A stretch of DNA of 64,000 nt from Thermoanaerobacter ethanolicus JW 200. Lineage in GTDB: Bacteria; Bacillota; Thermoanaerobacteria; Thermoanaerobacterales; Thermoanaerobacteraceae. Shown here piece by piece: positions 9,641-54,510 of this stretch. The notes under the pieces are model-generated. The model ran no database searches. It was given only the letters and a program-made list of their open reading frames with translations, and was not told the DNA's origin. Each line of letters starts with the position of its first letter. Within the stretch, counting starts at the first letter, position 1. Position numbers and translations under genes: made by a program. The stretch spans positions 743,001 through 807,000 of the forward strand of contig NZ_CP033580.1 in assembly GCF_003722315.1 (NCBI RefSeq), written 5' to 3'.

Positions 9641-11552
9641 GTGCGCCCGGCATGGGCGATAGCTAGGCGGTGAAAGTCCGCTGTGGGCTTGGTAGTGGGA
9701 ACCACTAGCCAAGAGCAAGGGTGTCCATCGTGAGGTGGAATCTGAAGGAAGCTTAAGGCAAAATCTCGGTCTGATGAACAAGAACCAGATAAGAGGCTGA
9801 ATTGGGGTGGATGAGTTTGCGTAACAAAACGAAGTCCAACACTACCCGAATCCCATACAGTAAATCTGGCAGATATATGAGATGAAAGTTATCGTTCTTA
9901 CCCGGGGAGGTCTCAAGGATAAGTCATGGAAGTAAAATCTGAAGTGACAACCCATGCAGTGATGTATGGCTGAACCTTGAGAAGTCAGCAGAGGTCATAG
10001 TACTTATCTAGACATGAATAGATAAGGAAGGACCGAACGTTAGGAGGTTTTGGAAATCTTATGGACTCGAAAGATATGCAGAGACTGCAGACAACTCAAC
10101 AAAGAGGCTATCCGTTGAATAGAGAAATGGAATTTCAAAAGACAACGGAAGTGCATAGTATATCATCGGCGTCGGAAGATGGAAGAAACGAAGTACAAAG
10201 ATATACCAGCAAGATGCTTGAAATGATAGTAGAACGAAGGAACATGGAAGCAGCATACAAGCGCGTTGTTGCAAATAAAGGAAGCCATGGAGTCGATGGG
10301 ATGGAAGTAGATGAACTTCTACCGTATCTCAAAGAAAACTGGGCAACCATAAAACAACAACTGCTGGAGGGGAAATACAAACCACAACCAGTGCGAAGAG
10401 TAGAAATTCCCAAACCAGATGGAGGAGTAAGACTACTAGGAATACCTACAGTACTAGACAGACTAATACAACAAGCAATAGCCCAAATACTAAATAAAGT
10501 CTACAACCATACATTTTCAGATAGCAGTTATGGATTCAGACCAGGACGCAGTGCAAAAGACGCAATAAAAGCCGCAGAAGCATACATAAATGAAGGATAC
10601 ACGTGGGTTGTAGATATGGACTTAGAAAAGTTCTTTGACAGAGTAAACCACGACATAATAATGTCCAAACTAGAAAAGCGGATAGGAGATAAAAGGGTAC
10701 TAAAGTTAATACGAAGATACCTAGAATCAGGAGTAATGATAAACGGAATCAAAGTATCAACAGAAGAAGGGACACCCCAAGGAGGGCCATTAAGTCCCCT
10801 ATTAGCAAACATAATGTTGGACGAACTAGACAAAGAACTTGAGAAACGAGGGCATAAATTCTGCCGATATGCAGATGACTGCAACATATATGTAAAAAGC
10901 AGGTCTGCAGGAAACAGAGTAATGAAGAGCATAAAGAAGTTCATAGAAAGCAAATTAAAACTAAAAGTCAACGAAGCAAAAAGTGCTGTAGATAGACCAT
11001 GGAGAAGAAAATTTCTTGGATTTTCATTCTATACAAAAGAAAACGAAGTAAGAATAAGAATCCATGAAAAATCCATCAAAAGGTTTAAGGAAAAAGTAAG
11101 AGAAATAACCAATCGGAACAAGGGAATAAGCATGGAAAACAGAATAAAAAGACTAAATCAAATAACAACAGGATGGGTCAACTATTTTGGATTAGCAGAC
11201 GCGAAAAGCATAATGAAAACCCTTGACGAATGGATAAGGCGAAGACTAAGGGCATGTATATGGAAACAATGGAAGAAGATAAAAACGAAGCATGATAACT
11301 TAGTAAAACTAGGAGTAGAAGAACAAAAAGCCTGGGAATACGCCAATACAAGGAAAGGCTACTGGAGAATATCCAATAGCCCAATCCTAAATAAGACTCT
11401 TACAAATAAATACTTTGAAAGCATAGGTTATAAGAGTTTATCCCAAAGATATCTAATTGTACACAATTCCTAATGAACCGCCGTATACCGAACGGTACGT
11501 ACGGTGGTGTGAGAGGACGCTGAATAAAATAATTATTCAGCTCCTACTCGAT
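9641..11552 (+). mobile_element. Group IIC intron, apparently full length
   Basis: Starts with the canonical GTGCG (9641) and ends with a CTACTCGAT-type 3' end (11552), about 1,912 nt. A structured 5' region of 420 nt precedes the reverse transcriptase gene. After its stop comes domain V (GAACCGCCGTATACCGAACGG with the CGTACGGTGGT return, 11474-11515), then domain VI with a GCTGAATAA/TTATTCAGC stem (11519-11541). The position right after a terminator hairpin is the known target choice of bacterial class C introns. No coding sequence is broken. Boundaries are read from motifs, not from an alignment. Confidence 0.9.
10061..11473 (+). CDS. ltrA: Group II intron reverse transcriptase/maturase
   Basis: Intron-encoded protein (470 residues) that splices its intron and copies it into DNA. 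It shows KGSHGVDGM (RT1), the RRVEIPKPDGGVRLLGIPT block, EGTPQGGPLSPLLANIMLD, and the catalytic YADD in CRYADDCNIYVKS near residue 270. The maturase X domain follows, with a TGWVNYFGLADA segment. It ends without an HNH endonuclease domain, as in class C proteins. It lies wholly inside the intron, with ribosome site AGGAGG 16 nt upstream. The reading frame is intact, so the intron may be active. Confidence 0.95.
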   Translation: MDSKDMQRLQTTQQRGYPLNREMEFQKTTEVHSISSASEDGRNEVQRYTSKMLEMIVERRNMEAAYKRVVANKGSHGVDGMEVDELLPYLKENWATIKQQLLEGKYKPQPVRRVEIPKPDGGVRLLGIPTVLDRLIQQAIAQILNKVYNHTFSDSSYGFRPGRSAKDAIKAAEAYINEGYTWVVDMDLEKFFDRVNHDIIMSKLEKRIGDKRVLKLIRRYLESGVMINGIKVSTEEGTPQGGPLSPLLANIMLDELDKELEKRGHKFCRYADDCNIYVKSRSAGNRVMKSIKKFIESKLKLKVNEAKSAVDRPWRRKFLGFSFYTKENEVRIRIHEKSIKRFKEKVREITNRNKGISMENRIKRLNQITTGWVNYFGLADAKSIMKTLDEWIRRRLRACIWKQWKKIKTKHDNLVKLGVEEQKAWEYANTRKGYWRISNSPILNKTLTNKYFESIGYKSLSQRYLIVHNS

Positions 11553-17405: not shown

Positions 17406-17677
17406 ATATTGTAACGGTTTGTGGCATGGGATTTGGCACTAGTTTAATTCTCAAGATGGCTGTTGATGAAATTTTAAAAAAAAATGGAATTGCTGCTAAT
17501 GTAGAGGCGTGTGACCTTGGTTCCGTAAAAGGGAAAGTAGCGGATTTAGTTGTTTCAACTTCCGAATTAGAATCCGAGTTAAAAAATTTGAATTTTAATA
17601 TAGTATTTGTAAAAAATGCAATAGACAAAAAAGATATTGAAGAAAAAGTGTTAGAAGCAATAAAAAAATTAAAATAA
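17402..17677 (+). CDS. PTS EIIB component (ascorbate/galactitol type)
   Basis: Phosphocarrier of 91 residues. The phospho-cysteine lies in VCGMGFGTSLILKM at residue 6, the usual place for GatB/UlaB-type EIIB proteins. It receives phosphate from an EIIA and passes it to sugar entering through the EIIC that follows 12 bp later. No free EIIA gene is nearby; the EIIA domain of the regulator at 12917 could fill the role, but that is inference. Start overlaps the SIS stop by 4 bp. Confidence 0.92.
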   Translation: MNIVTVCGMGFGTSLILKMAVDEILKKNGIAANVEACDLGSVKGKVADLVVSTSELESELKNLNFNIVFVKNAIDKKDIEEKVLEAIKKLK

Positions 17678-17689
17678 AGGAGGATAAGT

Positions 17690-19036
17690 ATGGAATTTAT
17701 AGTCAGTTTATTTAGTCAACCAGCAATAATGGTTGGCATAATGGCCCTAATAGGTTTAATTGCTTTGAAAAAATCTGTGCAAGAAATTATTAATGGTACT
17801 TTAAAAACAATAATTGGTTTTATTATTTTACAGATTGGCGCTGGAGCAATTGTTGATTCACTTAATGTATTAGGTCCATTGTTCCAAAATGCTTTCCATT
17901 TACAAGGAGTTATTCCAACGAACGAAGCGGTAATTGGACTAGCACAAAAAATGTTTGGAACAGAAATGGCTTTAATGATGGCATTTGGATTTTTAGTAAA
18001 CCTAATTATAGCAAGACTTACACCTCTTAAGTATGTATTTTTAACAGGGCACCATATATTATTTATGTCAGGTCTTTTGGCTGCAGTATTGAGTACAGCT
18101 GGTTTTAGAGGAACTGAATTAGTTATAGTTGGTTCATTAATTTTAGGTTCTACAATGGTGCTTACACCAGCAATTGTGCAACCATATTATAGAAAAGTTA
18201 CAGGAAATGATAGTGTTGCAATGGGTCATTATAATGCTTTGACATATTTTATTTCCGCATATATTAGTGGTTTGGTTGGAGACAAAAAACGGTCAACAGA
18301 AGATATTAAGGTACCACAAGGATTAAGCTTTTTCAAAGATAATACTATATCAACAGCAATAATTATGATGATAATTTTCTTAGTAACGCTATACTCCGCA
18401 GATAGAAAACTAGTTTTAGAAGCATCGGGAAATCAAAACATTTTTATATTTGCTATTATTCAAGCATTAACATTTACAGCAGGTTTTGTAGTTGTTCTCC
18501 AAGGTGTTAGAATGATGCTTGCCGAAATTGTGCCTGCTTTTAAAGGTATTGCAGAAAAGATAGTTCCAGATGCCATACCTGCTCTTGACTGTCCTGTAAT
18601 TTTCCCATTTGCTCCTAATGCAGTAATTGTTGGTTTCTTATCATCTCTTGTAGGTGGAATAGTAATGTTCCTTATATTACCCCATATAGGATTACCAGTT
18701 ATTATTCCTGGTTTGATACCGTTGTTTTTTGTAGGTGCAGCTGCCGGCGTATTGTCTAATGCAACAGGAGGTTTAAGGGGAACAATTATAGGAGGTTTTG
18801 TCAATGGCTTAATCTTGACTTTCCTTCCTGCAATTTTATTACCAGTTATGGGTCAACTTGGATTTGCAAACACGACTTTTGGTGATGCCGATTTTGCAGT
18901 AACTGGAATTATTGTAGGATATGCGGCAAAGCTTTTTTCTAAGACGGGTGTGTATGTTTTGATTGGAATATTGATATTACTGTTTATTATAATTTCTCTT
19001 GTTGCTAAACCTCAAAAAATAGCAAATGCAAAGTAA
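17690..19036 (+). CDS. PTS EIIC component, UlaA/SgaT type
   Basis: Membrane permease (448 residues, about 10-12 helices) of the ascorbate-type PTS family. The N-terminal KSVQEIINGTLKTIIGFIIL and the central GHHILFMSGLLAAVLS segments are typical of UlaA/SgaT. Transport and phosphorylation are coupled with the EIIB upstream. UlaA relatives move several pentitol-like or ketose-like compounds, and with transketolase genes next door ascorbate itself is unlikely; none of the UlaDEF enzymes is present. Ribosome site AAAGGAGGA. Confidence 0.92.
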   Translation: MEFIVSLFSQPAIMVGIMALIGLIALKKSVQEIINGTLKTIIGFIILQIGAGAIVDSLNVLGPLFQNAFHLQGVIPTNEAVIGLAQKMFGTEMALMMAFGFLVNLIIARLTPLKYVFLTGHHILFMSGLLAAVLSTAGFRGTELVIVGSLILGSTMVLTPAIVQPYYRKVTGNDSVAMGHYNALTYFISAYISGLVGDKKRSTEDIKVPQGLSFFKDNTISTAIIMMIIFLVTLYSADRKLVLEASGNQNIFIFAIIQALTFTAGFVVVLQGVRMMLAEIVPAFKGIAEKIVPDAIPALDCPVIFPFAPNAVIVGFLSSLVGGIVMFLILPHIGLPVIIPGLIPLFFVGAAAGVLSNATGGLRGTIIGGFVNGLILTFLPAILLPVMGQLGFANTTFGDADFAVTGIIVGYAAKLFSKTGVYVLIGILILLFIIISLVAKPQKIANAK

Positions 19037-19053
19037 ATTAATCTAATTTTTAC

Positions 19054-19088
19054 AAAATTGGCCAAGGAAATGTTCCTTGGTCAATTTT
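19054..19088 (+). terminator. Hairpin between EIIC and transketolase genes
   Basis: AAAATTGGCCAAGGAA (19054-19069) pairs with TTCCTTGGTCAATTTT (19073-19088). The T tract is short, so partial termination or RNA processing may set lower expression of the downstream genes. Confidence 0.65.
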
Positions 19089-19132
19089 CAATAAATTTTT
19101 AAAATTAAAGTGGAAGGGAAGATATTTTTAAC

Positions 19133-19957
19133 ATGAATAAAAAAGAAAATTTAAAAAGAATAGCAAAGGAAATACGATTAGCTATAATTAATATGATTTC
19201 AGAAGCGGCTCATGGACATCCTGGAGGTTCGCTCTCTTGTGTAGATATTTTAACAACACTCTATTTTGACAAAATGAATGTAAAACCAGACAATCCTAAA
19301 TGGGAAGACAGAGATAGAATTGTACTGTCAAAAGGTCATGCGGCACCTGCACTTTATGCTACTCTTGCTAAAAAAGGTTATTTTTCAGAAAAGATTTTAT
19401 CTACTTTAGATAAGCTCGGTTCAATACTTCAAGGGCATCCCGATATGAAATCCACACCGGGACTTGATATGACCACAGGGTCATTAGGGCAAGGGCTTTC
19501 CGCTGCAAATGGAATGGCATTAGCAGGTAAATTAGATAAAAAGGGCTATAGAGTCTATGTAATATTAGGAGATGGAGAATTACAAGAAGGGCAAATATGG
19601 GAAGCAGCTATGACAGCAGCCCATTACAAACTCGACAACTTGACTGCAATACTTGACTTTAACGGCTTACAAATAGATGGCCCAAACAGAGAAGTAAAAA
19701 ACATAGAACCAGTAAATGAAAAATTCAAAGCTTTTGGATGGCACGTAATAGAAATAGACGGCCACGACTTTGACCAAATAGACAAAGCCATAGAAGAAGC
19801 AAAAGCTACAAAAGGAAAACCTACATTGATAATAGCTCATACAATAAAAGGGAAAGGCGTATCCTTTATGGAAAATCAAGTAGGATGGCATGGCAGTGCG
19901 CCTAATGAAGAACAAAGACAAAAAGCTATACAAGAACTTGAAGGGAGTGGAGTATAA
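19133..19957 (+). CDS. Transketolase, N-terminal subunit
   Basis: Thiamine-diphosphate-binding half of a split transketolase (274 residues). HGHPGGSLSCVDILT near residue 28, LSKGHAAPALYATL near 66, and the TPP/Mg motif GDGELQEGQIWEAAMTA (about 145-161) with the closing asparagine are intact. Together with the next gene it transfers two-carbon units between sugar phosphates, such as sedoheptulose 7-phosphate, xylulose 5-phosphate and ribose 5-phosphate. It directly precedes its partner without a gap. A split transketolase beside a UlaA-type PTS points to use of a pentose or heptose skeleton. Confidence 0.95.
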   Translation: MNKKENLKRIAKEIRLAIINMISEAAHGHPGGSLSCVDILTTLYFDKMNVKPDNPKWEDRDRIVLSKGHAAPALYATLAKKGYFSEKILSTLDKLGSILQGHPDMKSTPGLDMTTGSLGQGLSAANGMALAGKLDKKGYRVYVILGDGELQEGQIWEAAMTAAHYKLDNLTAILDFNGLQIDGPNREVKNIEPVNEKFKAFGWHVIEIDGHDFDQIDKAIEEAKATKGKPTLIIAHTIKGKGVSFMENQVGWHGSAPNEEQRQKAIQELEGSGV

Positions 19958-20890
19958 ATGGCTATGGCGACAAGAGAAGCCTATGGGAAAGCCTTAGTAG
20001 AATTAGGCGCAAAAAACAAAGATGTAGTGGTATTAGACGCTGACCTATCAAAATCCACAAAGACGGCAGATTTTCAAAAAGTATATCCAGATAGATTTTT
20101 TAACATGGGAATATCAGAGCAAGATATGATGGTAACAGCAGCAGGACTCGCTACCTGTGGGAAAATTCCTTTTGCCAGCACTTTTGCCATATTTGCAACA
20201 GGAAGAGCTTATGAGCAAGTGAGAAACTCCATAGGTTATCCACACTTAAACGTAAAAATAGCAGCTACCCATGCTGGCATAACAGTAGGAGAAGACGGGG
20301 CGACACACCAATCAATAGAGGATATATCCCTTATGAGAGGAATACCTGGGATGGTGGTAATAAACCCAGCCGATGCAGAAGAGACGAGACAAGCCATATT
20401 TGCGGCGGCAGAGCACTATGGACCAGTATACATAAGGTTGGGGAGGATGGCAGTACCAGATATACACGATCAAAACTACAAATTTGAATTAGGAAAAGGT
20501 GAAGTAATAAGAGAAGGGAAAGACGTAGCGATAATAGCGACAGGGATAATGGTAGCCATAGCGATTGAAGCAGCAGATAAACTAAAAGAAGAGGGAATAG
20601 AAGCGACAGTGGTGAACATCCACACCATAAAGCCGATAGACAAAGATTTAATAGTAGAAGTAGCTAAAAAGACGGGCAAAGTTATAACAGCAGAAGAGCA
20701 CAACATAATAGGAGGACTTGGGTCTGCTGTGGCAGAAGTTCTTTCAGAAGAATACCCAGTAAAGATAAAGAGAATAGGTATAAAAGACCAATTTGGCCAA
20801 TCAGGTTCACCTAAAGAGCTTTTAAAGTATTATGGATTGACAGCGGAGGGTATTGTTAAAAACTCCAAAGCTATTCTTAAAATATCTTAA
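19958..20890 (+). CDS. Transketolase, C-terminal subunit
   Basis: Pyrimidine-binding and C-terminal part of the split transketolase (310 residues), starting on the base after the partner gene ends. The catalytic glutamate lies in MGISEQDMMVTAAGLA near residue 54, THAGITVGEDGATHQ near 105, and a C-terminal domain with HNIIGGLGSAVAEVL follows. GGGAGTGGAG before the ATG gives translation in step with the first subunit. Base composition in parts of this gene is more A-rich at third positions (AGAAGTAGC-type stretches) but not enough to claim transfer. Confidence 0.95.
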   Translation: MAMATREAYGKALVELGAKNKDVVVLDADLSKSTKTADFQKVYPDRFFNMGISEQDMMVTAAGLATCGKIPFASTFAIFATGRAYEQVRNSIGYPHLNVKIAATHAGITVGEDGATHQSIEDISLMRGIPGMVVINPADAEETRQAIFAAAEHYGPVYIRLGRMAVPDIHDQNYKFELGKGEVIREGKDVAIIATGIMVAIAIEAADKLKEEGIEATVVNIHTIKPIDKDLIVEVAKKTGKVITAEEHNIIGGLGSAVAEVLSEEYPVKIKRIGIKDQFGQSGSPKELLKYYGLTAEGIVKNSKAILKIS

Positions 20891-20945
20891 CGAATAAATT
20901 TAGGAAGTAGAAATTAGAAAAATTGCGAAAAAGGGGGCCCATAAT

Positions 20946-21776
20946 TTGAATGATTTACTTATAGCGGCGAGAAAGAATAAGTATGCTATTGGAGGTTTTA
21001 ATTTTAATTTTTATGATGATGCATTAGGCATAGTTTTAGGAGCATATGAATTGAGTTCTCCTGTATTTTTGATGGCTAGTGAGGGAACAGTTAAATTTTT
21101 AGGAGTTAAAAAAATAGTTAATTATGTAAAACAGCTAAAAGAAGATTTTAATATTCCTATTGTTTTACATCTTGATCACGGTAAAAATATAGAAATAATA
21201 AAAGAGTGTATAAACGATGGATTTGATTCTATAATGTACGATGGCTCACTGCTTGATTTTGAAAATAATATTAAAAATACCAGAATGATAGCTGAATTAT
21301 GCCATGACAGAGGAATACCATTAGAAGGTGAATTAGGCAGAATATCAGGAATAGAAGAAAATGTTGAAAATATTGATGATGTATTAACCGATCCGGATAG
21401 TGTAGTGGAATTCATAGAAAGGAGTAAAGTAGACTCTTTGGCAATAGCTATTGGGAATGCACATGGATTATATAAAGACAAACCTAAGTTAGATTTTGAA
21501 AGACTCTCAAAAATTAATGATATTTCATCAGTGCCTTTAGTTTTACATGGAGGCACAGGTATACCTTTAGAAGATATAAAAAAAGCTATAAAATTAGGTA
21601 TAAGTAAAGTAAATATTGGAACTGAAATAAAGATAACATATTTTAAAACTATAAAAAGATATATTGGAACTATTAATAAAAATGATGTAAGACATTTAAT
21701 TTCTACTATTCAGAATGATATCAAAGAACTTGTAAAACAATATATTGAGATATTTGGTAGTTTTAATAGGATATGA
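20946..21776 (+). CDS. Class II fructose/tagatose-bisphosphate-type aldolase
   Basis: Zinc-dependent class II aldolase of 276 residues in the FbaA/GatY/KbaY group. The metal-binding and catalytic HLDHG (about 79-83), GELGRISG (about 132), AIGNAHGLYK (second metal histidine, about 180), LHGGTGIP (about 208) and a phosphate-binding NIGTEI are present. It cleaves a ketose 1,n-bisphosphate into dihydroxyacetone phosphate and an aldehyde; hexose versus heptose bisphosphate cannot be told. Start TTG at 20946 behind AGGGGG. The stop overlaps the upstream in-frame ATG of the PFK gene (ATGA), so these two genes are translated together. Confidence 0.9.
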   Translation: MNDLLIAARKNKYAIGGFNFNFYDDALGIVLGAYELSSPVFLMASEGTVKFLGVKKIVNYVKQLKEDFNIPIVLHLDHGKNIEIIKECINDGFDSIMYDGSLLDFENNIKNTRMIAELCHDRGIPLEGELGRISGIEENVENIDDVLTDPDSVVEFIERSKVDSLAIAIGNAHGLYKDKPKLDFERLSKINDISSVPLVLHGGTGIPLEDIKKAIKLGISKVNIGTEIKITYFKTIKRYIGTINKNDVRHLISTIQNDIKELVKQYIEIFGSFNRI

Positions 21777-21802
21777 TTATCGATATCTCCGAGGTGAATT
21801 TC

Positions 21803-22699
21803 ATGAAGATAGGTGTAGTAACAAGTGGAGGGGATTGCCCCGGAATGAATGCGTTTATATTGGAATTAGCAAAATTATGTAGCAAAACGGATTGTGATTT
21901 GATTGGATATATTGGAGGGTATAAAGGGGTAGAGGAAAATAATTTTATCGATCTTAATTTTAATAGTATAAGTGGTATGTCATTAGGGAAAAGAGGAGGA
22001 AGTATATTATTCACAGGTCGATATGAAAATTTAAAAGATGACAAAAAAATGATTTATTTAAAGCAAAATTTGAACAAGAGTGGAGTAGATTGGCTGGTGG
22101 TATTAGGCGGAGATGGCTCTTTAAGAGCTGCTAAAAAATTGTCTGATTTAGGAATAAAGGTAGTTGGAGTCCCAGCCACGATAGATAATGATGTCAAAGG
22201 TACAGATTATACACTAGGTTTTGATACCGCTATTAATAAAACACTGGAGGTTATAAATGATATTGAAGATACTGCTACTGCTATGCCTGGCAAAATATAC
22301 ATAGTGGAAACATTAGGAGGCGATTCTGGAAATATAGCAAAGGCTGCATTTGATCAAGGTGCAGCAGATATAGCATTGATACCTGAAATGCCAATTAGTG
22401 ATGAAGAACTTGTTAATATGGTAAAGGAAAAATTTAGTAATGGCAATAAATACATAATAATAACAATCTGTGAAGGACTAAAAAGAACAATGCATTATAG
22501 CGAATTGTTACAACAAGCTTTAAACAGAAAAGTACATGTAACAATCATAGGACATAAACAAAGAGGAGGAAGTCCCACTGCATATGATAGATATATGGCA
22601 AAACAATTTGCAAAGCAAGCCTTTGATTTAATTAAAAAAAATGATTATGGGAAAATGGTTTGCTATACATTGGGTAAAATTGGGAATTGCAATTTATAA
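21803..22699 (+). CDS. 6-phosphofructokinase homologue with altered substrate residues and a short C-terminus
   Basis: PfkA-family sugar-phosphate kinase, 298 residues from ATG 21803 (GAGGTG upstream; an earlier ATG at 21773 gives ten extra residues). GGDCPGMN, the ATP-type GGDGS motif and PATIDNDVKGTDYTLGFDTA with the catalytic Asp are intact. Compared by eye with PfkA, two of the arginines that hold the 6-phosphate of fructose 6-phosphate appear replaced (R162 by K in MPGKIYIVE; R243 by H in KVHVTIIGH), and MGR of the substrate loop reads LGG. About 20-30 C-terminal residues are missing, and the gene runs into IS debris. Substrate other than fructose 6-phosphate is plausible. Confidence 0.85.
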   Translation: MKIGVVTSGGDCPGMNAFILELAKLCSKTDCDLIGYIGGYKGVEENNFIDLNFNSISGMSLGKRGGSILFTGRYENLKDDKKMIYLKQNLNKSGVDWLVVLGGDGSLRAAKKLSDLGIKVVGVPATIDNDVKGTDYTLGFDTAINKTLEVINDIEDTATAMPGKIYIVETLGGDSGNIAKAAFDQGAADIALIPEMPISDEELVNMVKEKFSNGNKYIIITICEGLKRTMHYSELLQQALNRKVHVTIIGHKQRGGSPTAYDRYMAKQFAKQAFDLIKKNDYGKMVCYTLGKIGNCNL

Positions 22700-22925
22700 T
22701 TATTTCCAATAGTTTCTTTTTCGTTCTTTTGTACTATATTTTAGGTTATATACTAATATATTGAGGGCAGGTAGAAGTGACCTTGTTTGAAGTATAGAGC
22801 ACTTATTTTGAATGTCTATTATATATATATTGTTTAGATGCTAAAATTTAGGCATACAGAATAAGTGCATTAAATACATATTTTATCATTTACAAAAACA
22901 TACTAACAATAGAAATACAAACACA

Positions 22926-23110
22926 TGTGACCTACAGATGGTTTTGAGGATATGGATTAAACGAAGAAATACCCCACTTTTCTACCTTTGGGAAAAACTA
23001 TGAAAGAAAATTCAAAAACACAGATATATTCGAAAAAATATTTACGAGGATACTAGAAGAAGCAATAAAACACAAATTCATAATTTGCATGTTTTTATCC
23101 AATATTCATC
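22926..23110 (+). pseudogene. IS1182-type transposase remnant, N-terminal region
   Basis: Plus-strand translation reads TYRWF-stop-GYGLNEEIPHFSTF followed by GKNYERKFKNTDIFEKIF, a pattern common near the N-terminus of IS1182-type transposases. A TGA breaks the frame and the rest of the gene is missing. Confidence 0.75.
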
Positions 23111-23261
23111 AGATTATATACAATTATATCCAAATATAAAGCAAACCCCACTTTTTACATGTATAAAAAGTGGGGTTTGTCTTCAATCTGAATCACTTTA
23201 TATACAAAGTGTAAAGTGATATTCAGTTTGTTGACAAAATTAATTTTAAGCCCCACTTTCG

Positions 23262-23403
23262 GAACGTAGAAAGTGGGGATATTGCTTTTGGTGTTCCTAC
23301 TTTTCCCTCAACTTCTTCTAATACTTCTTCAGACATTACGCTGTCGTGGACATTTGCTGCTGTTATTTTTACTCCTAATACAAATCCATTTTTATCGCAG
23401 GCT
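23262..23403 (-). pseudogene. Transposase remnant, central region
   Basis: Minus-strand reading gives ACDKNGFVLGVKITAANVHD followed by SVMSEEVLEEV, typical of the central catalytic part of IS1182/IS5-type transposases. It faces the other remnant and ends exactly where the neighbouring dehydrogenase frame begins (near 23403). Confidence 0.75.
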
Positions 23404-24228
23404 GTGGGAGAATCGTGGTTAAATCTAGAAAACAAAGTTGCGATAATAACAGGAGGTGCTTCTGGTATAGGTAAAGAAATAGCAATTAAGTTAGCAGAAC
23501 AAGGAGCATCAGTAGTTATAGCTGATATAAATTCTGATGGTGAGAAAGTCATAAATCAATTAAGTGGGGGAAGAAAAAGACATCTATTTTTACAAACAGA
23601 TGTTGCCAAAAAAGATAGTGTTAGGAAGATGGTAGAGAATGTTATTAAGATATTTAGAAAAATTGATATATTGGTTAATAATGCTGGTATAAATATTCCA
23701 AGACTTTTAGTAGATCCTAAAGATCCAAACGGAAAATATGAGTTAAACGAGCAAGATTTTGACTTAATGGTAGCAGTAAATCAAAAGGGCACTTTTTTCT
23801 GCACTCAGGAAGTAGCGCGAGAAATGATAAAAAATGGATACGGTGTCATAATTAATATGAGCTCGGAAGCAGGTCTTGAAGGTTCAGAAGGTCAGAGTTG
23901 CTATGCAGGAACAAAAGGTGCTATTTATGCTTTTACAAGGTCATGGGCAAAGGAATTGGGCAAATATGGAATAAGAGTTGTAGGAGTTGCTCCAGGAATT
24001 ATTGAAGATACAGGATTAAGAACTTTAGAATATGAAAAGGCTCTTGCTTATACGAGAGGTATCACTGTAGAAAAATTAAGAGAAAATTATGAAAATAAAT
24101 CAATACCTCTAGGAAGAGCTGGTAGAGTTAGTGAAATAGCAGATTTGGTTTGTTTTTTGGCTTCAGAAAGAGCAAGTTATATTCATGGAGTTACTTACAA
24201 CATTTCAGGTGGAAAATCTCGTGGTTAA
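23404..24228 (+). CDS. Short-chain dehydrogenase, probable sorbitol-6-phosphate 2-dehydrogenase
   Basis: NAD(P)-dependent SDR enzyme, 274 residues. It shows the nucleotide motif TGGASGIGKEIA, NNAG (NNAGINIPRL), the catalytic S and YxxxK (SSEAG...CYAGTKGA) and a C-terminal NISGGKSRG. With glucitol PTS genes next door it should oxidise glucitol 6-phosphate to fructose 6-phosphate. Its start is odd: the GTG at 23404 abuts an IS remnant and no good ribosome site remains, so the native leader seems lost and expression is doubtful. An ATG start may have been changed to GTG at the junction. Confidence 0.85.
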   Translation: MGESWLNLENKVAIITGGASGIGKEIAIKLAEQGASVVIADINSDGEKVINQLSGGRKRHLFLQTDVAKKDSVRKMVENVIKIFRKIDILVNNAGINIPRLLVDPKDPNGKYELNEQDFDLMVAVNQKGTFFCTQEVAREMIKNGYGVIINMSSEAGLEGSEGQSCYAGTKGAIYAFTRSWAKELGKYGIRVVGVAPGIIEDTGLRTLEYEKALAYTRGITVEKLRENYENKSIPLGRAGRVSEIADLVCFLASERASYIHGVTYNISGGKSRG

Positions 24229-24255
24229 GTTGCTCAACATATAATTTTCTACTCT

Positions 24256-24360
24256 CATCACCCCTCATGTTTTGCGTTTTATAAATCAAATATTACACTA
24301 TTGCACATTTGTGTCAAAAAGTTTATACTACTAAAGTAGAATAAAAAATGAGGGGTGATG
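24256..24360 (+). promoter_or_regulatory. Long-range inverted repeat over the regulator's ribosome site
   Basis: CATCACCCCTCAT (24256-24268) is a perfect 13-bp complement of ATGAGGGGTGATG (24348-24360), which contains the ribosome site of the SorC-type gene. Transcripts that begin upstream could fold and hide this site; transcripts from the promoter at 24301-24329 lack the left arm. The effect is inference. Confidence 0.6.
24301..24329 (+). promoter_or_regulatory. Promoter of the glucitol regulator/PTS operon
   Basis: TTGCAC (24301-24306), 17-bp spacer, TATACT (24324-24329), giving a start near 24336 and a short leader before ATG 24363. Confidence 0.7.
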
Positions 24361-24362
24361 CT

Positions 24363-25322
24363 ATGAGTAAGTGGGAAGAAACAAGGCTTCTTGCTAAAAT
24401 TGCTCAGATGTATTATATTGAAAACTTAACTCAAAGTGAGATATCCAAAAAATTAGGTATTTATCGGACAACTATAAGTAGACTTTTGAAAAAGGCAAGA
24501 GAAAAGGGAATAGTAGAAATCGTGATCAAAAGTGATTTTGGTGAGTGCTTAGAATTGGAAAAATTATTAGAAAGTAAATTTTCTTTAAAAGAAGCAGTTG
24601 TTATACCATCTACAGATGAGCAAAACGAAATAATATTAAAACAAATGCTTGGTAAAGCCGGAGCAGAATATTTAAAGAGAATTGTTAAAGATGGTGACGT
24701 AATTGGGTTTGCATGGGGTACTACCATGGCTGCAGTTGCAAATGCATTGTCGGACTGTAATAGTATATCTGCTAATATTATTCCCCTTGTAGGTGGACCA
24801 GGAAACATAGAAAGTGAATACCATGTTAATACAATAGTATCAAAAGTTGCGTCTGCCTTTAAGGCTAAAGGACATTATCTCTATGCTCCGGCTATTACTG
24901 CAGAAAAAGAAACGAAAAAAGCTATTATGAATGATAATAATTTAAGATCAATACTAGAATTATGGAATAAAGTTAATATTGCAGTGGTAGGAATAGGCGC
25001 ACCTATTAAGTCTTCTAATCTAATATGGTCAGGTTATTTTGGAAATGAAGATATTGAATTTTTGAAAAAGGTAAATGCAGTTGGTGATATATGTTCTAGA
25101 TTTTACGACATAAATGGTAATATTATAAATTCGGATTTAAATGATAGAACAATAGCGATAGATTTAGAAAAACTGCGAAATATTGAATATTCAATAGGAG
25201 TTGCTGAATCTCTTGAAAAGGTTCCCTCAATATTAGGAGCGTTAAATGGTAGATTTATAAATGTGCTTATTACTACAGAAAGAACTGCAAAATTATTAAT
25301 TGAATTAAATAACAATATGTAA
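24363..25322 (+). CDS. SorC/DeoR-type sugar-binding transcriptional regulator
   Basis: Regulator of 319 residues. An N-terminal helix-turn-helix (NLTQSEISKKLGIYRTTISRLLKKAREKGIVEI, about residues 17-48) is followed by a large sugar-phosphate-binding domain with GFAWGTTMAAVANAL near 120 and VVGIGAP near 215, as in SorC/CggR/DeoR-like effectors. Start is ATG at 24363; an in-frame ATG at 24348 lies inside the ribosome site GAGGGGTGAT. It opens the glucitol PTS operon and probably responds to glucitol 6-phosphate or fructose 6-phosphate (inference). Confidence 0.88.
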   Translation: MSKWEETRLLAKIAQMYYIENLTQSEISKKLGIYRTTISRLLKKAREKGIVEIVIKSDFGECLELEKLLESKFSLKEAVVIPSTDEQNEIILKQMLGKAGAEYLKRIVKDGDVIGFAWGTTMAAVANALSDCNSISANIIPLVGGPGNIESEYHVNTIVSKVASAFKAKGHYLYAPAITAEKETKKAIMNDNNLRSILELWNKVNIAVVGIGAPIKSSNLIWSGYFGNEDIEFLKKVNAVGDICSRFYDINGNIINSDLNDRTIAIDLEKLRNIEYSIGVAESLEKVPSILGALNGRFINVLITTERTAKLLIELNNNM

Positions 25323-25372
25323 AAAATGCATTATTAAATAATTTTAGAAACAATTTTTAAAAGAGGGATTTT

Positions 25373-25756
25373 ATGGTTTGGCATATAGTTATATTGCTGG
25401 GAGCTGCATGGTTTATACAGAGTATTTTAGGATATTTGCAAATAAAACATTTTAATAAGCATTTTAAAAAAATGAGAGAATTAGGAAGAGTTGCAATAGG
25501 GAAGAACAAAGGCAAAATAAGAGCTGGGGTAGTTGTTCTAATTGCGGTCGACGGAAATGGTAACATTATTCGAGTTGAAAAAATGAAGGGTGTTTCGGTC
25601 TTTGCCAGAATGAAACCTGTGAAAGGATTAGAAGACAAAAATATTCTCAGTATAGATAATAACACACTAAAAAATTTTGACAAATTGACAGCTAAAGCTA
25701 TAGAGAATGCAATAGAAAATTTTAAAAAATTTTCTGGTGAAGGAGGTGAGGAATAG
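25373..25756 (+). CDS. srlM: Glucitol operon activator (GutM/SrlM)
   Basis: 127 residues. One N-terminal membrane segment (IVILLGAAWFIQSILGYLQI) is followed by a small conserved domain, RVAIGKNKGKIRAGVVVLIA, typical of GutM/SrlM proteins encoded in glucitol operons. In E. coli this protein assists activation of the srl operon. It lies between the regulator and the EIIC gene, which is the usual order. The ribosome site AGAGGGA precedes ATG 25373. Confidence 0.9.
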   Translation: MVWHIVILLGAAWFIQSILGYLQIKHFNKHFKKMRELGRVAIGKNKGKIRAGVVVLIAVDGNGNIIRVEKMKGVSVFARMKPVKGLEDKNILSIDNNTLKNFDKLTAKAIENAIENFKKFSGEGGEE

Positions 25757-25826
25757 AAGAAATGTTTTAAATAGTTTATAAGTAGTTATGCAAAATTAAA
25801 TAAAAGAACAAAAAGGAGGTAATTTT

Positions 25827-26375
25827 ATGGAAGTATTGACACATGCGGCGGAAGTTTTTATAGGTTTATTTCAAGAAGGTGGGAAAACATTTGTAAATAT
25901 GCTTTCTGGGATAGTTCCCACATTAATAATGCTCCTTGTTGCGATGAATGCATTAATAAAATTTGTTGGTCCTGAAAAGGTTGAAAAATTAGCAAAAGCT
26001 AGTTCAAGAAATGTATTTACAAGATATCTTATACTACCTGTGGTTGGAACATTCTTTTTCTGCAATCCCATGACATTATCATTAGGTAAATTTTTACCAG
26101 AAAAATACAAACCTAGCTATTATGCAGCAGCATCCTTTTCATGTCATACCATGAATGGACTGTTTCCGCATGTAAATCCAGCTGAACTCTTTGTGTTTTT
26201 AGGTATAGCGAATGGTATTACTCAACTAGGTTTGCCAACAAGTGACTTGGCTTTAAGATATTTTTTGGTAGGAGTTGTAACGAATTTCTTTAGAGGTTGG
26301 ATAACAGATTTCACAACTTCTTGGGTTGAAAAGCAACAAAATGTTAAATTAAAGACGGTAATTTCTCTTAAATAA
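25827..26375 (+). CDS. srlA: PTS glucitol/sorbitol EIIC component
   Basis: Membrane permease (182 residues, about five helices) of the Gut family. [30 protein letters not shown] at the N-terminus, [20 protein letters not shown] (about 75-94) and [20 protein letters not shown] are typical of SrlA. It carries glucitol with EIIB SrlE and EIIA SrlB. It has a strong AAAAAGGAGGT ribosome site. About 150 bp of AT-rich sequence without recognisable features separates it from srlE. Confidence 0.94.
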
Positions 26376-26524
26376 TCTTGAGCGATAAAAAATAAGTTAT
26401 CTTAGATAAATTGCTTAACAGAAGAAATGAAGTTAAACAAAAATATTTATGAAGCCTTTACTAAGGAAATTTTTAGTTAAAATACTTTTAATAACACAAA
26501 ATTTACAATAAAGGAGGATGAAAA

Positions 26525-27529
26525 ATGAGCAAATATAGGAGTATAAAGATAACTGCGGGGCCAGGTGGATTTGGTGGACCTTTAATTATAACGCCTACAG
26601 AGAAAAGAAACAAAGTTGTGACGATTACAGGAGGAGATATTTCACCTGTTGCGAAAAGGATTGCTGAGTTAACGGGTTGTGAACTGATAGACGGTTTCAA
26701 AACTACAGTTCCAGATGATGAAATTGCGTGCGTAATAATAGATTGTGGTGGAACATTAAGGTGTGGTATATACCCTCAAAAAAATATACCAACAGTAAAT
26801 TTGACACCTGCTGGCCCAAGCGGTCCGCTTTCACAATATATTAAACCTGATATATATGTCTCAGGAGTTAAAACGAACAACATAGAACTATTTAATGGGC
26901 CTATAGAAGAGATAAAAGCTAACATTGAAGAAGTTGCAGCAGCAACTCCAAAGCCAAAGTATGATACAAGTAAAAAAATTAGTGAACAATCAAATACAGG
27001 AAATTTAATGGTTAAAATAGGTAAAGGCATGGGATACTTAGTTGGGGTACTATATCAAGCAGGGCGTGATACTATAGATACAGTATTAAGGACGATTCTT
27101 CCATTTATGGCTTTTGTATCTATGTTAATTGGCATAATATTAAAATCTGGAATAGGCGATGCGTTGGCACATGTATTAACGCCTCTTGCTGGTACATTAC
27201 CTGGATTGTTACTGATATCAGCAATTTGTTCTTTTCCATTTCTTTCGCCGTTCTTGGGACCTGGCGCGGTAATAGCTCAGGTTATAGGTGTATTAGTTGG
27301 TGTTGAAATAGGCAAAGGCCATATTCCTCCACAATTATCTTTACCTGCTTTATTTGCAATAAACTCACAGGCAGCATGTGATTTTATACCTGTGGGGCTT
27401 GGACTTGCAGAAGCAGAACCGGAAACAGTAGAAGTTGGTGTACCATCTGTATTGTATAGTAGATTCTTGACTGGTCCTACCACTGTATTTGTTGCATGGC
27501 TTGCAAGTTTTGGCCTTTATTCAAAATAA
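26525..27529 (+). CDS. srlE: PTS glucitol/sorbitol EIIB component
   Basis: 334-residue Gut-family EIIB with a membrane-bound second half. The N-terminal domain includes [20 protein letters not shown] and the phospho-cysteine region [15 protein letters not shown] (about residue 83), followed by hydrophobic segments from about residue 185 ([20 protein letters not shown]) to the C-terminus. Complete. A hairpin (27541-27583) and then the second IS copy lie between this gene and srlB, so srlB no longer follows directly. Confidence 0.93.
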
Positions 27530-27540
27530 AATGGTAAAAT

Positions 27541-27583
27541 AATAAGGGAATAGAAGATAGTACCACTATCTTCTTTCCTTATT
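27541..27583 (+). terminator. Hairpin after srlE
   Basis: AATAAGGGAATAGAAGATAG can pair with CTATCTTCTTTCCTTATT with two small mismatches. It is a terminator or attenuator within the glucitol operon; T-rich sequence follows weakly. Confidence 0.55.
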
Positions 27584-27604
27584 ATTAATTAATGTTAAGA
27601 ATTT

Positions 27605-29351
27605 TAGGTGATTGCAAAATGAGATAAATATTAGAGTAAAAAAGTTACATTACAAGGAACAAAATAAAGAAATTACATTTTAAAGGCACGCTCAAGAGGG
27701 GAAAAGAGAAATGGAAGAAAGATACAAATTCAAAAAAGACAATACCTAACACACCTTTTTAATGTAAAAAGGTGACAAACGAATCAAACCATAAGAACAA
27801 GTTATCAAGCCAAAAGTTTTTTCAAAGATAAAGGATGTTCAAAAGTACCAAGTTTTGCAGTAATAATTAAACCAATATGTTGAGTGATAGCCCCAAGAAA
27901 AACATCAGCTTTGATTGACCTGGTATTTATGAGTTTAAAGCTATCAACAGCGATAGAACTTTTTAAAAGAGAAATAGATTTTTCAATAATAGGGCGTTTT
28001 TCATAAAGTTTGGACCACTTTTTAGAGTTACGAGGGACAACAGTGTTTTTTCTAAAATCAATATCAAGGGTAGTATAGAATATTCTGCCGCATTTAGAAG
28101 AGGTACAGGGGTTATCACATTGAAGGATATAAGTAGTTTTACCGTTTAGTCTAACTTTTTTGGACATAGGGCAAAGCCATTTAATTCTGGTAGTTCTACC
28201 TTTTTCCCGGACGATGCCATCATAGGACATTTTAAGAGAAGGGTCACGGGGGCAGGTAGGGATACCATCAGAGTTAAAAGTAGGCTGAGGTAAGTTTTTA
28301 GAATTTCGAGGGTTAATAGGGATAATAGGGATTATGCCATGCTCTGAGAACAAGTATTTGTAATTATCAAAAGAATCAAACCCAGCGTCACCTAAGAAGT
28401 ATCTATAAGAGAAATTAGGATGTAAATTAAAGAATTCCTTAAGAGAAGGGATTAAAGTTTTAGAATCGTACAAATCTTTAGACTCGGCAGCAGATTTAGC
28501 AGTATTGACATTTAAAGAATCATCGTCATAGAAACTAATATGCTGAATAATGCCTAAGCCATTAGTGAGGATGGTAGCTTTGATAGAGTAACAATAATGG
28601 CCATTAATATAAGAGAATTTAGCATCAGGATTAGAGTGAGCGAACTTAGGCATTTTAGAACAAGCATAAGAGTGGGCATCAAAATCAGGATTAGATTTAG
28701 AGAACTTTTTAATATTTCTATAAAGGGAATCAAAGAACTTAGGATTATTTTCTCTGACATAAGGTTGAAAGCCAGTAGTATCAGCGATGAGGATATTAGA
28801 AAGTGAAGGATTAATAGCCTGACAAATAGGCTCAGTTAAATTAACAAGATTATTGAAGAAATTCTCCAAATCTTTGAGGAAAATGGATTTAAATCTAGAG
28901 AATTGAGAAGGATGAGGGACTCTTTTAAAGCCACAAAGCTCTCTTAATTCTTTAGAGAGCTTAAGAACATGGACAAGGAGTTGAACAGTAGGGATAGAGA
29001 GAATTTTTTGGATAATCAAAGAAGTGAGCATAGATTCAAGAGAAAAATCCCTATGACGCCCGAAGTGAGAATAATAATGGGCGTAAAAAGAAGGTGGAAT
29101 AAGTTCAGATAAATCAATAAAGGAATCAAAGAGTTTAATAAACTTGGGTTTATCTTCTTCAAAGAAGGATTGAACATCATCGTAAATATCGGAGAGAGAA
29201 AGTTGTTTAGCTTTGATTTTCATAGGATTTCCTCCATTTCTTTTTGGGATTTGGTTCTCTATATAAATTCGACGAAAGTGGAGGAATTCCTTTGAAAATA
29301 TATAGCAGAATCCCTTAATCCATAAGGATTTTGGGATTCTGCAAAGACCTA
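27605..29351 (-). mobile_element. DDE-type insertion sequence, copy 2 (1,747 bp)
   Basis: Second copy of the element at 15040-16785, in the same orientation, with the same ends TAGGTGATTGC and GCAAAGACCTA. It has its own 14-bp target duplication AATGTTAAGAATTT (27591-27604 and 29352-29365). It splits the glucitol PTS operon between srlE and srlB. Confidence 0.93.
27805..29223 (-). CDS. Transposase, DDE superfamily (IS copy 2)
   Basis: 472-residue transposase with the same protein sequence as the one at 15239-16657, including the DTTGFQPYV, GDAGFDSFD and KRPIIEKS segments. The reading frame is intact. The identity of the two copies implies recent transposition in this genome. Confidence 0.92.
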   Translation of the reverse strand: MKIKAKQLSLSDIYDDVQSFFEEDKPKFIKLFDSFIDLSELIPPSFYAHYYSHFGRHRDFSLESMLTSLIIQKILSIPTVQLLVHVLKLSKELRELCGFKRVPHPSQFSRFKSIFLKDLENFFNNLVNLTEPICQAINPSLSNILIADTTGFQPYVRENNPKFFDSLYRNIKKFSKSNPDFDAHSYACSKMPKFAHSNPDAKFSYINGHYCYSIKATILTNGLGIIQHISFYDDDSLNVNTAKSAAESKDLYDSKTLIPSLKEFFNLHPNFSYRYFLGDAGFDSFDNYKYLFSEHGIIPIIPINPRNSKNLPQPTFNSDGIPTCPRDPSLKMSYDGIVREKGRTTRIKWLCPMSKKVRLNGKTTYILQCDNPCTSSKCGRIFYTTLDIDFRKNTVVPRNSKKWSKLYEKRPIIEKSISLLKSSIAVDSFKLINTRSIKADVFLGAITQHIGLIITAKLGTFEHPLSLKKLLA

Positions 29352-29383
29352 AATGTTAAGAATTTTATTAGGAGGAGAGCAAA

Positions 29384-29764
29384 ATGAATACTATTTATGA
29401 AACGATAGTTACTAAAATAGGTGCAAAAGCACAAGATTTTTATTCAGAAAAAATTGTTATATTATTTGGAGATAATGTTCCGGATGAATTAATTGAGTAT
29501 TGTGTACTACATAATAATAACATAGATAAAGCGCATATAGATTATAAAAATATAGAAGTTGGAGATATACTTAAGATAAATGAAGAAAAATTTAAAATAA
29601 CAGCAGTGGGTGAATTGGTCAATATTAACCTTAAAAATCTAGGACACATTACTATAAAATTTGACGGAAGTACGATAGCAGAACTACCCGGAACTTTACA
29701 TGTAGAAAATAAAAATATACCAATTATAAATGTAGGGGATGCAATAGTAATTGTGAGGGAATAA
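29384..29764 (+). CDS. srlB: PTS glucitol/sorbitol EIIA component
   Basis: 126-residue cytoplasmic EIIA of the Gut family. The segment LFGDNVPDELIEYCVLHNN (about residues 26-44) and the C-terminal GTLHVENKNIPIINVGDAIVI are typical of SrlB. It passes phosphate from HPr to SrlE. Its ribosome site (TTAGGAGGAG) is intact, just right of the IS target duplication. Transcription must now come from outside or from within the IS, because the element cuts it from srlA-srlE. Confidence 0.92.
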   Translation: MNTIYETIVTKIGAKAQDFYSEKIVILFGDNVPDELIEYCVLHNNNIDKAHIDYKNIEVGDILKINEEKFKITAVGELVNINLKNLGHITIKFDGSTIAELPGTLHVENKNIPIINVGDAIVIVRE

Positions 29765-29795
29765 TAATAATTAATTTACCATAAAACCAAGTAGA

Positions 29796-29852
29796 GATGT
29801 GTGTTTAACTTTGCTTTTCATAGATTTTCTCCGTTTCGTTTTGTTTAGTTTA
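29796..29852 (-). repeat. Degenerate relic resembling the 5' end of the 1.75-kb IS transposase
   Basis: GTTTAACTTTGCTTTTCATAG and following TTTTCTCCGTTTCGTTTTG resemble the IS sequence GTTTAGCTTTGATTTTCATAG with TTTCCTCCATTTCTTTTTG (29205-29245). It looks like a diverged fragment of a related IS, found between srlB and the aldolase gene. Confidence 0.4.
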
Positions 29853-29901
29853 TGAAAAATTTAAGGTTATACAAGGGCAAAAAGAAGGGAGGAAAATTAT
29901 T

Positions 29902-30570
29902 ATGTTATTATTAATGGATACAGCTAACATAAAAGAAATTAAACAAAGCATTGAAATGTATCCGATAGATGGTGTAACGACAAATCCTTCTATAATAGCA
30001 AAAGAAAAAAGGGATTTTATTGAATTATTGAAGGAAATTAGAGATATAATAGGATATGATAAAATGCTTCATGTACAGGTTATTAGCCAGAAAGCAGATG
30101 AAATTGTAGAAGAAGCAAAATATATAAATAGAGAAATAGGAGGAAATTTATATATAAAAATACCCGTAATACCTGAAGGAATAAAAGCCATAAAAATGCT
30201 TAAAGGAGAAATAAAAACAACGGCAACTGCTGTATTTACACCTCAACAGGCTCTTATAGCGGCTAAATCTGGTGCCGATTTTGTTGCGCCTTATGTAAAC
30301 AGATTAGATAATATATCCGCAAATGGCATTAAAGTTGTATCAGATGTTGTAAAACTTATAAATATATATAATTTTAATACTAAAGTTATTGCAGCAAGTT
30401 TTAAAAATGTCGAACAAATTTATGGAGTATGTATGGCTGGAGCTCATGCTATTACGGTTAATTATGATATGATAAATCAAATGATTTTCCATCCAATGAC
30501 TGATTGGAGTGTGTTGCAATTTGTTAAAGATTGGGAAAATTTTTATGGTAATAAAAAAATACGAACATAG
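29902..30570 (+). CDS. Fructose-6-phosphate aldolase / transaldolase-like protein
   Basis: 222-residue Schiff-base aldolase of the TalC/FSA group. The N-terminal LLLMDTANIKEIKQ and GVTTNPSIIAKE, the catalytic lysine in LYIKIPVIPEG (about residue 88) and APYVNRLDNIS are clear. Residues that separate E. coli FSA from true small transaldolases favour FSA here: glutamine in HVQV and APYVNR rather than SPFLGR. It would then split fructose 6-phosphate into dihydroxyacetone and glyceraldehyde 3-phosphate. At the end of a glucitol operon this gives a direct exit for the fructose 6-phosphate made by the dehydrogenase. Assignment is by eye. Confidence 0.85.
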   Translation: MLLLMDTANIKEIKQSIEMYPIDGVTTNPSIIAKEKRDFIELLKEIRDIIGYDKMLHVQVISQKADEIVEEAKYINREIGGNLYIKIPVIPEGIKAIKMLKGEIKTTATAVFTPQQALIAAKSGADFVAPYVNRLDNISANGIKVVSDVVKLINIYNFNTKVIAASFKNVEQIYGVCMAGAHAITVNYDMINQMIFHPMTDWSVLQFVKDWENFYGNKKIRT

Positions 30571-30643
30571 GAAATTATATTTAGAAGTAATTACAAATAG
30601 GTAAAATTTAGGATAATACGAAAATATGAAATAACATAACTAT

Positions 30644-32581
30644 GATTCTAGTGTAGAAACTCAATTTTAGAATCTGCTTTTCTGTACTTTGACAAATTTA
30701 TTTAGGTAAATTGTGGTAATTTGCACCTATGATAACAAAAATCCAGTTTAAAGTCCGCCAAGAAAAGCTTATATTTTACCTTTATAATACGTTATTACCA
30801 TTTATTGGGCCAATATGGGCACACTTCCCCCTCGGACCTTTGGAATAGCTTTTTTAGCTCGCTCCAACATGTATCTTGCAAAACGCTTAAAGTTCTGGGC
30901 CAATACCTTTAAGCCTACGTTTACTCTACATTTTACAAGTCCCCTTACTCGAAGCTTCGAAAGACCATGACCCCTCTTCAAGGCTGAATTGGTACCTTCT
31001 ATTGCAGCTCTTTTGCTCTTGTCTTCCTCACACCTACATTCTATCTTTTCCCGTTGTTTGGCTGCTTCTATCGATTTTAGATTTATCCTCACCACGTAAT
31101 CTTTTTTCTGTTCTTTGCAGTAACATTGATTTTTCAATTCACACATTGCACAGGCTTCTTTTGGAAAATGGGCCACCGTCTGCCCCTTCTTAACACCGGC
31201 ATGGATGGGTATTATTCCCCTTGGGCACTTCGTTATCACTTTCGTTTCTTCATCTATTTCATATTCGGTCACTGATATCCTAGAAATAGGCTTCCTGCCG
31301 CTTAAGTCGGTAAAGTGGAGTTCCACACCGTTTTCTTTTGCAATTTGCACTACTTCTTCGGAGTAATAACCACCGTCTACATAGACTTCTTGGCATTCAG
31401 TATTTTGTTTTACAATAGGTAGTCTTTCTTTTAAAAGTTCTACATCGCTTTTTATGTTCTTTTCTACCGTATAGTCTGTTATGAGCTGGAAGGGATTTTC
31501 TTTTGAACAGGTTTCGCTGAGGTTTAAAACGTATCCGCTTTCAGCTTTGTTCCCCTTCTTGCGATAAGTAGCATCCTCATCGTATGCTGACTGAAGGGAA
31601 TCGCTGGGTATGCTTTTGCTGTCTTTGGCCTTGAGCCTCTTGGTTTTTTCGTCGTAGTACGCCTGTTCTGACAGGAATCTTGCGAGGATTTTATATGCAT
31701 CGGATTTTTCAAGTCCGGGAATGTTTTCGATTGTTTCCTTTGCTTCTTGGCACAGATTCAAGAGTATTTCGAGCCTGCTTTCGCTTTCTGAAGGCTTGGT
31801 TTTATGTATCACTTCTGTCTTGAATTTAGGGTTGAGGACTTCTTTCAGGTTCTCTGAAAGTCTATCTTCAGGGATGGATTTTACTGCCCTGTAAAGTACA
31901 TCAAAGGCAAGGGCGATTCTTCCTGCTTTTTTGATGTTTGACATGAACATGGTGGAGTCCATGCGCTGTTCTTTCATGGATATGCCTGCTTCTTTGGCAA
32001 AAATACTGGTAAGATTTAGAAATTGCCCGAATATCAAGTCCTCTTGTTCAGGATGTTTTATGAGGTATTGGTATATCCTTGATCTAAAGTCATACAAGGT
32101 TTTCTCTGAAAGGTTCATGCCTCCTAATGTCCTTATTCCTACAGCGTAATTTATCAGGTAATTGAAGTTAAAGTTTTCAATAAGTTCATCATCAGAGTAG
32201 TTTTTAAGGTGTTTTATGTATTCCAGGGAAAGGAGTATGTTAACCGGGAAGTTAGGCCTTCCTGTATCACTGTATAAGACTGAAAAGGGTTTTTCATCGA
32301 TGTTGCAGAACACGTATTTATAGAATATGGGTGCCCATGATTTTTCTAGTTTAGCCTTTATCCTTGAATCCATGAAGTTAACACTTTCAAATAAAGATTG
32401 TTGAAAATGGTCGCTGTTTTCTCTAAACAAGTGCAACACCCCATTTGTTGTAATTTTTGCTTCTTTGATTCTAACATAATTCTATGAAAATTTGTACTAC
32501 CTATATTTTTATGTTTATTTATTCAATCTATTTTATATTTATACTTCTTCATAAAGAAAAGAGGCTTTTTACACTAGAATC
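30644..32581 (-). mobile_element. IS1182-family insertion sequence (about 1,938 bp)
   Basis: Inverted ends GATTCTAGTGTA (30644-) and TACACTAGAATC (-32581) with a 6-bp direct repeat AACTAT outside (30638-30643; 32582-32587). One intact transposase gene lies inside. Confidence 0.88.
30802..32439 (-). CDS. Transposase, IS1182 family
   Basis: 545 residues, full length. The N-terminal domain (FSVLYSDTGRPNFPVNILLSLEYIK, about 50-76) is the DUF772 module of IS1182/IS5 transposases. The DDE core follows: RMDSTMFMSNIKK near 160, VYVDGGYYSEE near 350 and an acidic KRAAIEGTNSALKRGHG near 488, with a C-rich segment (CAMCELKNQCYC) before it. Start GTG at 32439 is the ORF limit; in-frame TTG codons just inside are possible starts. 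Confidence 0.92.
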   Translation of the reverse strand: MLHLFRENSDHFQQSLFESVNFMDSRIKAKLEKSWAPIFYKYVFCNIDEKPFSVLYSDTGRPNFPVNILLSLEYIKHLKNYSDDELIENFNFNYLINYAVGIRTLGGMNLSEKTLYDFRSRIYQYLIKHPEQEDLIFGQFLNLTSIFAKEAGISMKEQRMDSTMFMSNIKKAGRIALAFDVLYRAVKSIPEDRLSENLKEVLNPKFKTEVIHKTKPSESESRLEILLNLCQEAKETIENIPGLEKSDAYKILARFLSEQAYYDEKTKRLKAKDSKSIPSDSLQSAYDEDATYRKKGNKAESGYVLNLSETCSKENPFQLITDYTVEKNIKSDVELLKERLPIVKQNTECQEVYVDGGYYSEEVVQIAKENGVELHFTDLSGRKPISRISVTEYEIDEETKVITKCPRGIIPIHAGVKKGQTVAHFPKEACAMCELKNQCYCKEQKKDYVVRINLKSIEAAKQREKIECRCEEDKSKRAAIEGTNSALKRGHGLSKLRVRGLVKCRVNVGLKVLAQNFKRFARYMLERAKKAIPKVRGGSVPILAQ

Positions 32582-54445: not shown

Positions 54446-54510
54446 AAAGGAGGTTTTGATTATTAAGAGAAATAGAAAAAGATTTAGCAATAATCAAAAC
54501 CTCCTTTTTT
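54446..54510 (+). terminator. Terminator of the small redox operon
   Basis: AAAGGAGGTTTTGATTATT (54446-54464) pairs with its complement at 54489-54507, followed by TTT. Long stem with a 24-nt loop. Confidence 0.85.

Follow-up and report, generated by a model that had tools for sequence, protein, structure and literature searches.

The window analysed here, a 64-kb stretch of the Thermoanaerobacter ethanolicus JW 200 genome, carries on its plus strand a gene for a SorC-type regulator (sorC, 24363-25322), whose product has a helix-turn-helix at its N-terminus and the sugar-binding domain PF04198, as expected of a SorC-type protein. It is flanked on one side by a gene for a sorbitol-6-phosphate dehydrogenase of the short-chain type (23404-24228, plus strand, NF004817), which has lost its original start codon and begins with GTG, and on the other side by the glucitol genes gutM, EIIC and EIIBC.

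Between the dehydrogenase and sorC lies an inverted repeat, with both arms given here on the plus strand. The arms CATCACCCCTCAT (24256-24268) and ATGAGGGGTGATG (24348-24360) are perfectly complementary over 13 bp and are separated by 79 nt; if one mismatch is allowed, they grow to 18 nt at 94% (24256-24273 and 24343-24360), and at the RNA level the pairing extends to about 24246-24273 with 24343-24377, so reaching the first sorC codons. The Shine-Dalgarno sequence GGGGTGAT (24352-24359) is contained in the right arm, directly 5' of the ATG at 24363. The first-pass annotation had described a 13-bp repeat whose right arm is the ribosome site of the regulator and whose left arm lies 79 nt upstream, and in all these points it was correct. 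The repeat is also beyond chance for the composition: in Markov sequences with the dinucleotide content of the window, 0.28 repeats of this kind (13 bp, loop of 20-120 nt) are expected per 64 kb, and repeats with at least 7 G/C in an arm occurred in none of 100 such sequences. No other exact copy of an arm was found in the 2.9-Mb genome, and no Rfam family was matched at gathering score in 19000-31000. An intrinsic terminator, taken as a G+C-rich stem with a short loop followed by a T-run, was not found in 23800-24700, which includes the gap between the dehydrogenase and sorC.

The segment between the arms holds a palindrome, TTGCACATTTGTGTCAA, at 24301-24317. Palindromes of the form TTGCACANNTGTGCAA occur upstream of many orthologues, and judged by its sequence the one found here is likely the SorC site. 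It sits, to within 1 nt, at the centre of the inverted repeat; we found no reason for this position, and it is perhaps a coincidence. A candidate internal promoter on the plus strand (24302-24329, TGCACA-16-TATACT, with the -10 box at 24324-24329) matches the consensus in 9 of 12 positions, and RNA from it would be expected to start at about 24336. Its -35 box, TGCACA, is weak and falls within the likely operator, which fits autoregulation of sorC. The top-scoring promoter-like site between the arms is on the minus strand (TTGACA-16-TAATAT, 10 of 12); it is the best consensus match, but we rejected it, as its -35 box is not kept in relatives (it is changed to TTAACA in both T. wiegelii and T. 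thermocopriae) and no gene lies downstream of it. The good -35 and -10 boxes that had been ascribed to the internal promoter were thus overstated.

RNA that runs from the dehydrogenase stop codon is predicted to fold with the stem closed (-43.7 kcal/mol, z -4.1, 0 of 200 shuffles), and RNA beginning at about the expected internal start is predicted to leave the ribosome site open. As a reference set we took sampled stretches of this genome, 444 kb in all, in which 366 gene starts were called mechanically. For sorC, the duplex that the start region forms with the stretch lying 60-140 nt upstream amounts to -31.1 kcal/mol, the strongest among the 366 sampled starts, and was equalled in 0 of 2000 shuffles. 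The predicted cost of opening the region of the 30S footprint is 29.8 kcal/mol on the long (read-through) RNA vs 7.2 kcal/mol on the short RNA, and this difference of 22.6 kcal/mol is the largest among the 366; since sorC was picked because of its repeat, rank 1 by itself is no independent test. The energy measures were selected after the folds had been seen, and a base-pair-probability statistic separates less well (45 to 110 of 1000 shuffles for the ribosome site). Seven of the nine starts that come next after sorC in opening-cost difference (ranks 2, 3, 4, 6, 8, 9 and 10) belong to transposases; four distinct types among them were confirmed by Pfam, while the other three are further copies, as seen from their length and start sequence. 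Protection from outside transcription is documented for transposases as a class, and the opening-cost measure thus finds genes that it would be expected to find.

Close relatives of the locus are present in T. wiegelii Rt8.B1, T. thermocopriae and two further Thermoanaerobacter records. Arm pairing in relatives, proposed earlier as a check, was followed up here, and the stem is retained, with a duplex of -30.6 in T. wiegelii and -29.1 in T. thermocopriae; the left arm of the former carries two changes, both of which leave G-U pairs, and the arms of the latter have lost one G. The left arm is no better conserved than its surroundings, and the Thermoanaerobacter arms have diverged too little to allow a covariation test. 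Another genus of the same family, referred to here as the sister genus (G017), which was not selected for any repeat, has a regulator that is 73% identical and shows the same topology with different arm sequences: a segment just past the dehydrogenase stop codon pairs with codons 1-6, start codon included. Its duplex (0 of 2000 shuffles) ranks 5th of 298 and its opening cost 4th of 298, the independent lineages that show the effect being two only. No promoter was found between the arms in G017. In the sister genus, the genes for dehydrogenase and regulator are surrounded by three SorC-type operators (L096, 7318-7332, 8209-8223 and 8281-8295), and the left stem arm overlaps the second of them.

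We also compared about 45 orthologues without the combined layout of a dehydrogenase upstream and an operator between the genes, loci L011 and L013 being left out; their long-minus-short differences range from -1.9 to 7.9, vs 12.6 to 22.6 where the layout is present. In Bacillus, Domibacillus, Paenibacillus and others without an upstream dehydrogenase, the differences are -1.9 to 3.9, and several of these orthologues carry a visible terminator before the regulator gene. A second set, with differences of -1.4 to 7.9, includes eight loci (L104, L105, L121, L123, L125, L126, L127 and L134) that have the same dehydrogenase directly upstream and no recognisable operator; there production of the regulator presumably relies on the shared RNA, so that hiding its start site would do harm. 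The strong effect is found only where dehydrogenase, absent terminator and internal operator coincide. L104, L105 and L126 have the dehydrogenase directly 5' of the SorC gene, with no operator recognisable between the two, and in the gap of L104 and L105 there is a hairpin (CTGGCACA...TGTGCCAG) followed by T's, perhaps a partial terminator that sets the dose of the regulator.

The region in front of the dehydrogenase differs in this strain from that of its relatives. At 23404-23405, about 258 bp are missing relative to L045, L046 and L047, and with them the dehydrogenase promoter, a SorC operator, the ribosome site and the ATG, so that GTG now stands at the start position; we found no relocated copy of the missing segment, and an assembly error may lie behind the apparent deletion. 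In relatives (L045, L047 and G017) an operator of this type, a -10 box and a proper ribosome site precede the dehydrogenase, and both promoters would thus answer to the regulator. Here, no promoter-like site was found on the plus strand in 22690-23420, and a terminator-like hairpin (23251-23278, plus strand) lies upstream of the dehydrogenase. To judge from the sequence, the dehydrogenase may be poorly expressed in this strain. The deletion has probably weakened the upstream source of RNA and, given also the lack of a promoter-like site and the hairpin, the supply of read-through RNA appears doubtful in this strain; the source is intact in relatives, and T. wiegelii is therefore a better place to study the switch proposed below.

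We consider it fairly probable that a translational switch governed by promoter choice insulates the autoregulated SorC-type regulator against transcription that comes in from the dehydrogenase upstream. On read-through RNA, the left arm, which comes just past the dehydrogenase stop codon, would fold back over ~70-80 nt onto the Shine-Dalgarno sequence and the first sorC codons, and this fold-back would block 30S binding. RNA begun at the operator-controlled promoter between the arms would lack the left arm and would be translated. The dose of the regulator would then follow its own promoter, and the downstream transporter genes could still draw on read-through RNA. It is from the sequence, the predicted energetics, the outlier status and the comparison across relatives, all of which support such a switch, that we infer the internal start site, the existence of read-through RNA, the translational effect and the purpose. 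The first-pass annotation had already suggested that the repeat links promoter choice to translation; the computed energetics, the relatives, the sister genus and the other layouts speak for this part of the proposal, while the internal promoter proved to be weak and RNA from the dehydrogenase is not assured here.

The same stem could serve mainly in RNA processing or stability, if a double-strand-specific RNase cuts the 18-28 bp helix of the read-through RNA; the dehydrogenase message would then gain a 3' end and be separated from the regulator message. With its length and its persistence across three Thermoanaerobacter haplotypes, the helix suits an RNase substrate as well as it suits occlusion, but processing does not require a right arm exactly on the ribosome site or, in the case of G017, on the start codon and the codons next to it; moreover, transposases have the profile nearest to that of sorC, and for them a translation block is the known reason. 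We therefore believe that both a main role in processing and the separation of the two messages by such a cut are unlikely. There is likewise a small chance that the repeat arose by accident, or that it once worked and is now an idle, decaying relic, above all in this strain, where the dehydrogenase promoter is deleted; the left arm shows no excess conservation and the lineages are few, yet the duplex was equalled in 0 of 2000 shuffles in either genus, and this, like the ranks of 1 in 366 and 4-5 in 298, is hard to reconcile with an accident, though less so with a relic in this strain.

An element acting at the level of DNA is very improbable. A promoter and an operator do lie between inverted repeats, with the operator within 1 nt of the centre, and long operators are bound by SorC tetramers (PMC11229326), for which the arms might be distant half-sites; we rejected this form of the explanation because the arms do not resemble the SorC operator. 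An invertible promoter does not agree with the single orientation seen in all five genomes, nor with arms that have diverged in T. wiegelii and T. thermocopriae and are no longer identical in the former. We also discarded a small mobile element, as there are no further copies and the intergenic length in the sister genus is similar, which argues against an insertion.

The proposed switch at sorC closely resembles those of T4 gene e (lysozyme) and of I-TevI, in which hairpins form on early or middle transcripts only, so that the ribosome site is hidden on the long early RNA but accessible on RNA begun at the proximal promoter; I-TevI in addition represses its own proximal promoter through an overlapping operator (PMC3014915, PMC2988022). 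As in these systems, a 5' strand upstream of the candidate proximal promoter is predicted here to pair with the Shine-Dalgarno sequence and start codon. The short RNA is predicted to be open, and the candidate promoter from which it would arise is a weak consensus match. As in I-TevI, a putative autorepressor operator lies over the proximal promoter. They differ in that the T4 genes belong to a phage and have their timing set by early and late promoters, whereas sorC is a chromosomal sugar regulator with a much longer loop (~70-80 nt) and a likely SorC operator. Protection from outside transcription has also been described for Tn10 (Davis et al. 1985) and IS200 (Beuzon et al. 1999), as cited in PMC2965389. 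In these elements too, outside RNA is kept from translation by structure near the start, and the transposases of the present genome score next to sorC; their structures, however, keep a mobile element quiet after insertion, whereas the neighbour of sorC is a fixed operon partner. Within the SorC family, the autoregulated repressors CggR and DeoR of B. subtilis have an operator at or near the promoter, and CggR represses the operon that encodes it (PMC11229326). The sorC regulator belongs to the same protein family and has its likely site in the same position; in contrast, the Bacillus orthologues examined here lack occlusion, and several have a terminator upstream. To our knowledge, no ribosome-site switch has been described for repressors of the CggR/DeoR type.

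The principle is thus already known from T4 gene e, I-TevI and IS transposases, and what it appears to protect here is an ordinary metabolic regulator; our literature search found no such switch in metabolic operons, and no map of transcription start sites for Thermoanaerobacter. If the switch is real, it shows how a self-regulated regulator can sit within its own operon and yet, with no terminator, be made in amounts that do not depend on transcription of the operon. More tentatively, we speculate that chromosomal metabolic regulators use occlusion of the ribosome site by promoter choice as an insulator against operon read-through, and that such insulators are evolutionarily interchangeable with terminators, their arm sequences turning over while the topology is kept. 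The opening-cost difference, which singles out sorC and the transposases among hundreds of starts, could be applied genome-wide in a search for more insulators of this kind.

Some further elements were seen in the course of the analysis. Copies of an element with a DDE transposase (L065:12591-12670, L078:5706-5785, L072, L077 and, on the minus strand of the window, ~51996) carry, 54 nt upstream, a stretch that pairs with their ribosome site and start codon (ATGTAGGATTTCC / GGAAATCCTACAT), in the same layout as sorC, and this fold-back is likely a protection from outside transcription. A similar inverted repeat at the start site (GCACTTATTCTGA) is found in copies of an ISL3-type transposase (L070:12717-12788 and 17575-17646, L071:8742-8815). 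The motif TGTCGAA, which we take to resemble a Spo0A box, is present both before the DDE transposase (L065 ~12615) and, in the sister genus, close to the promoter of the regulator (L096 ~8258). Elsewhere in the window, a group II intron reverse transcriptase/maturase (RVT_1, GIIM) is encoded at 10061-11473, and a perfect 19-bp inverted repeat with a 24-nt loop (54446-54507, left arm AAAGGAGG) is followed by a T-run past its right arm and is probably a terminator.
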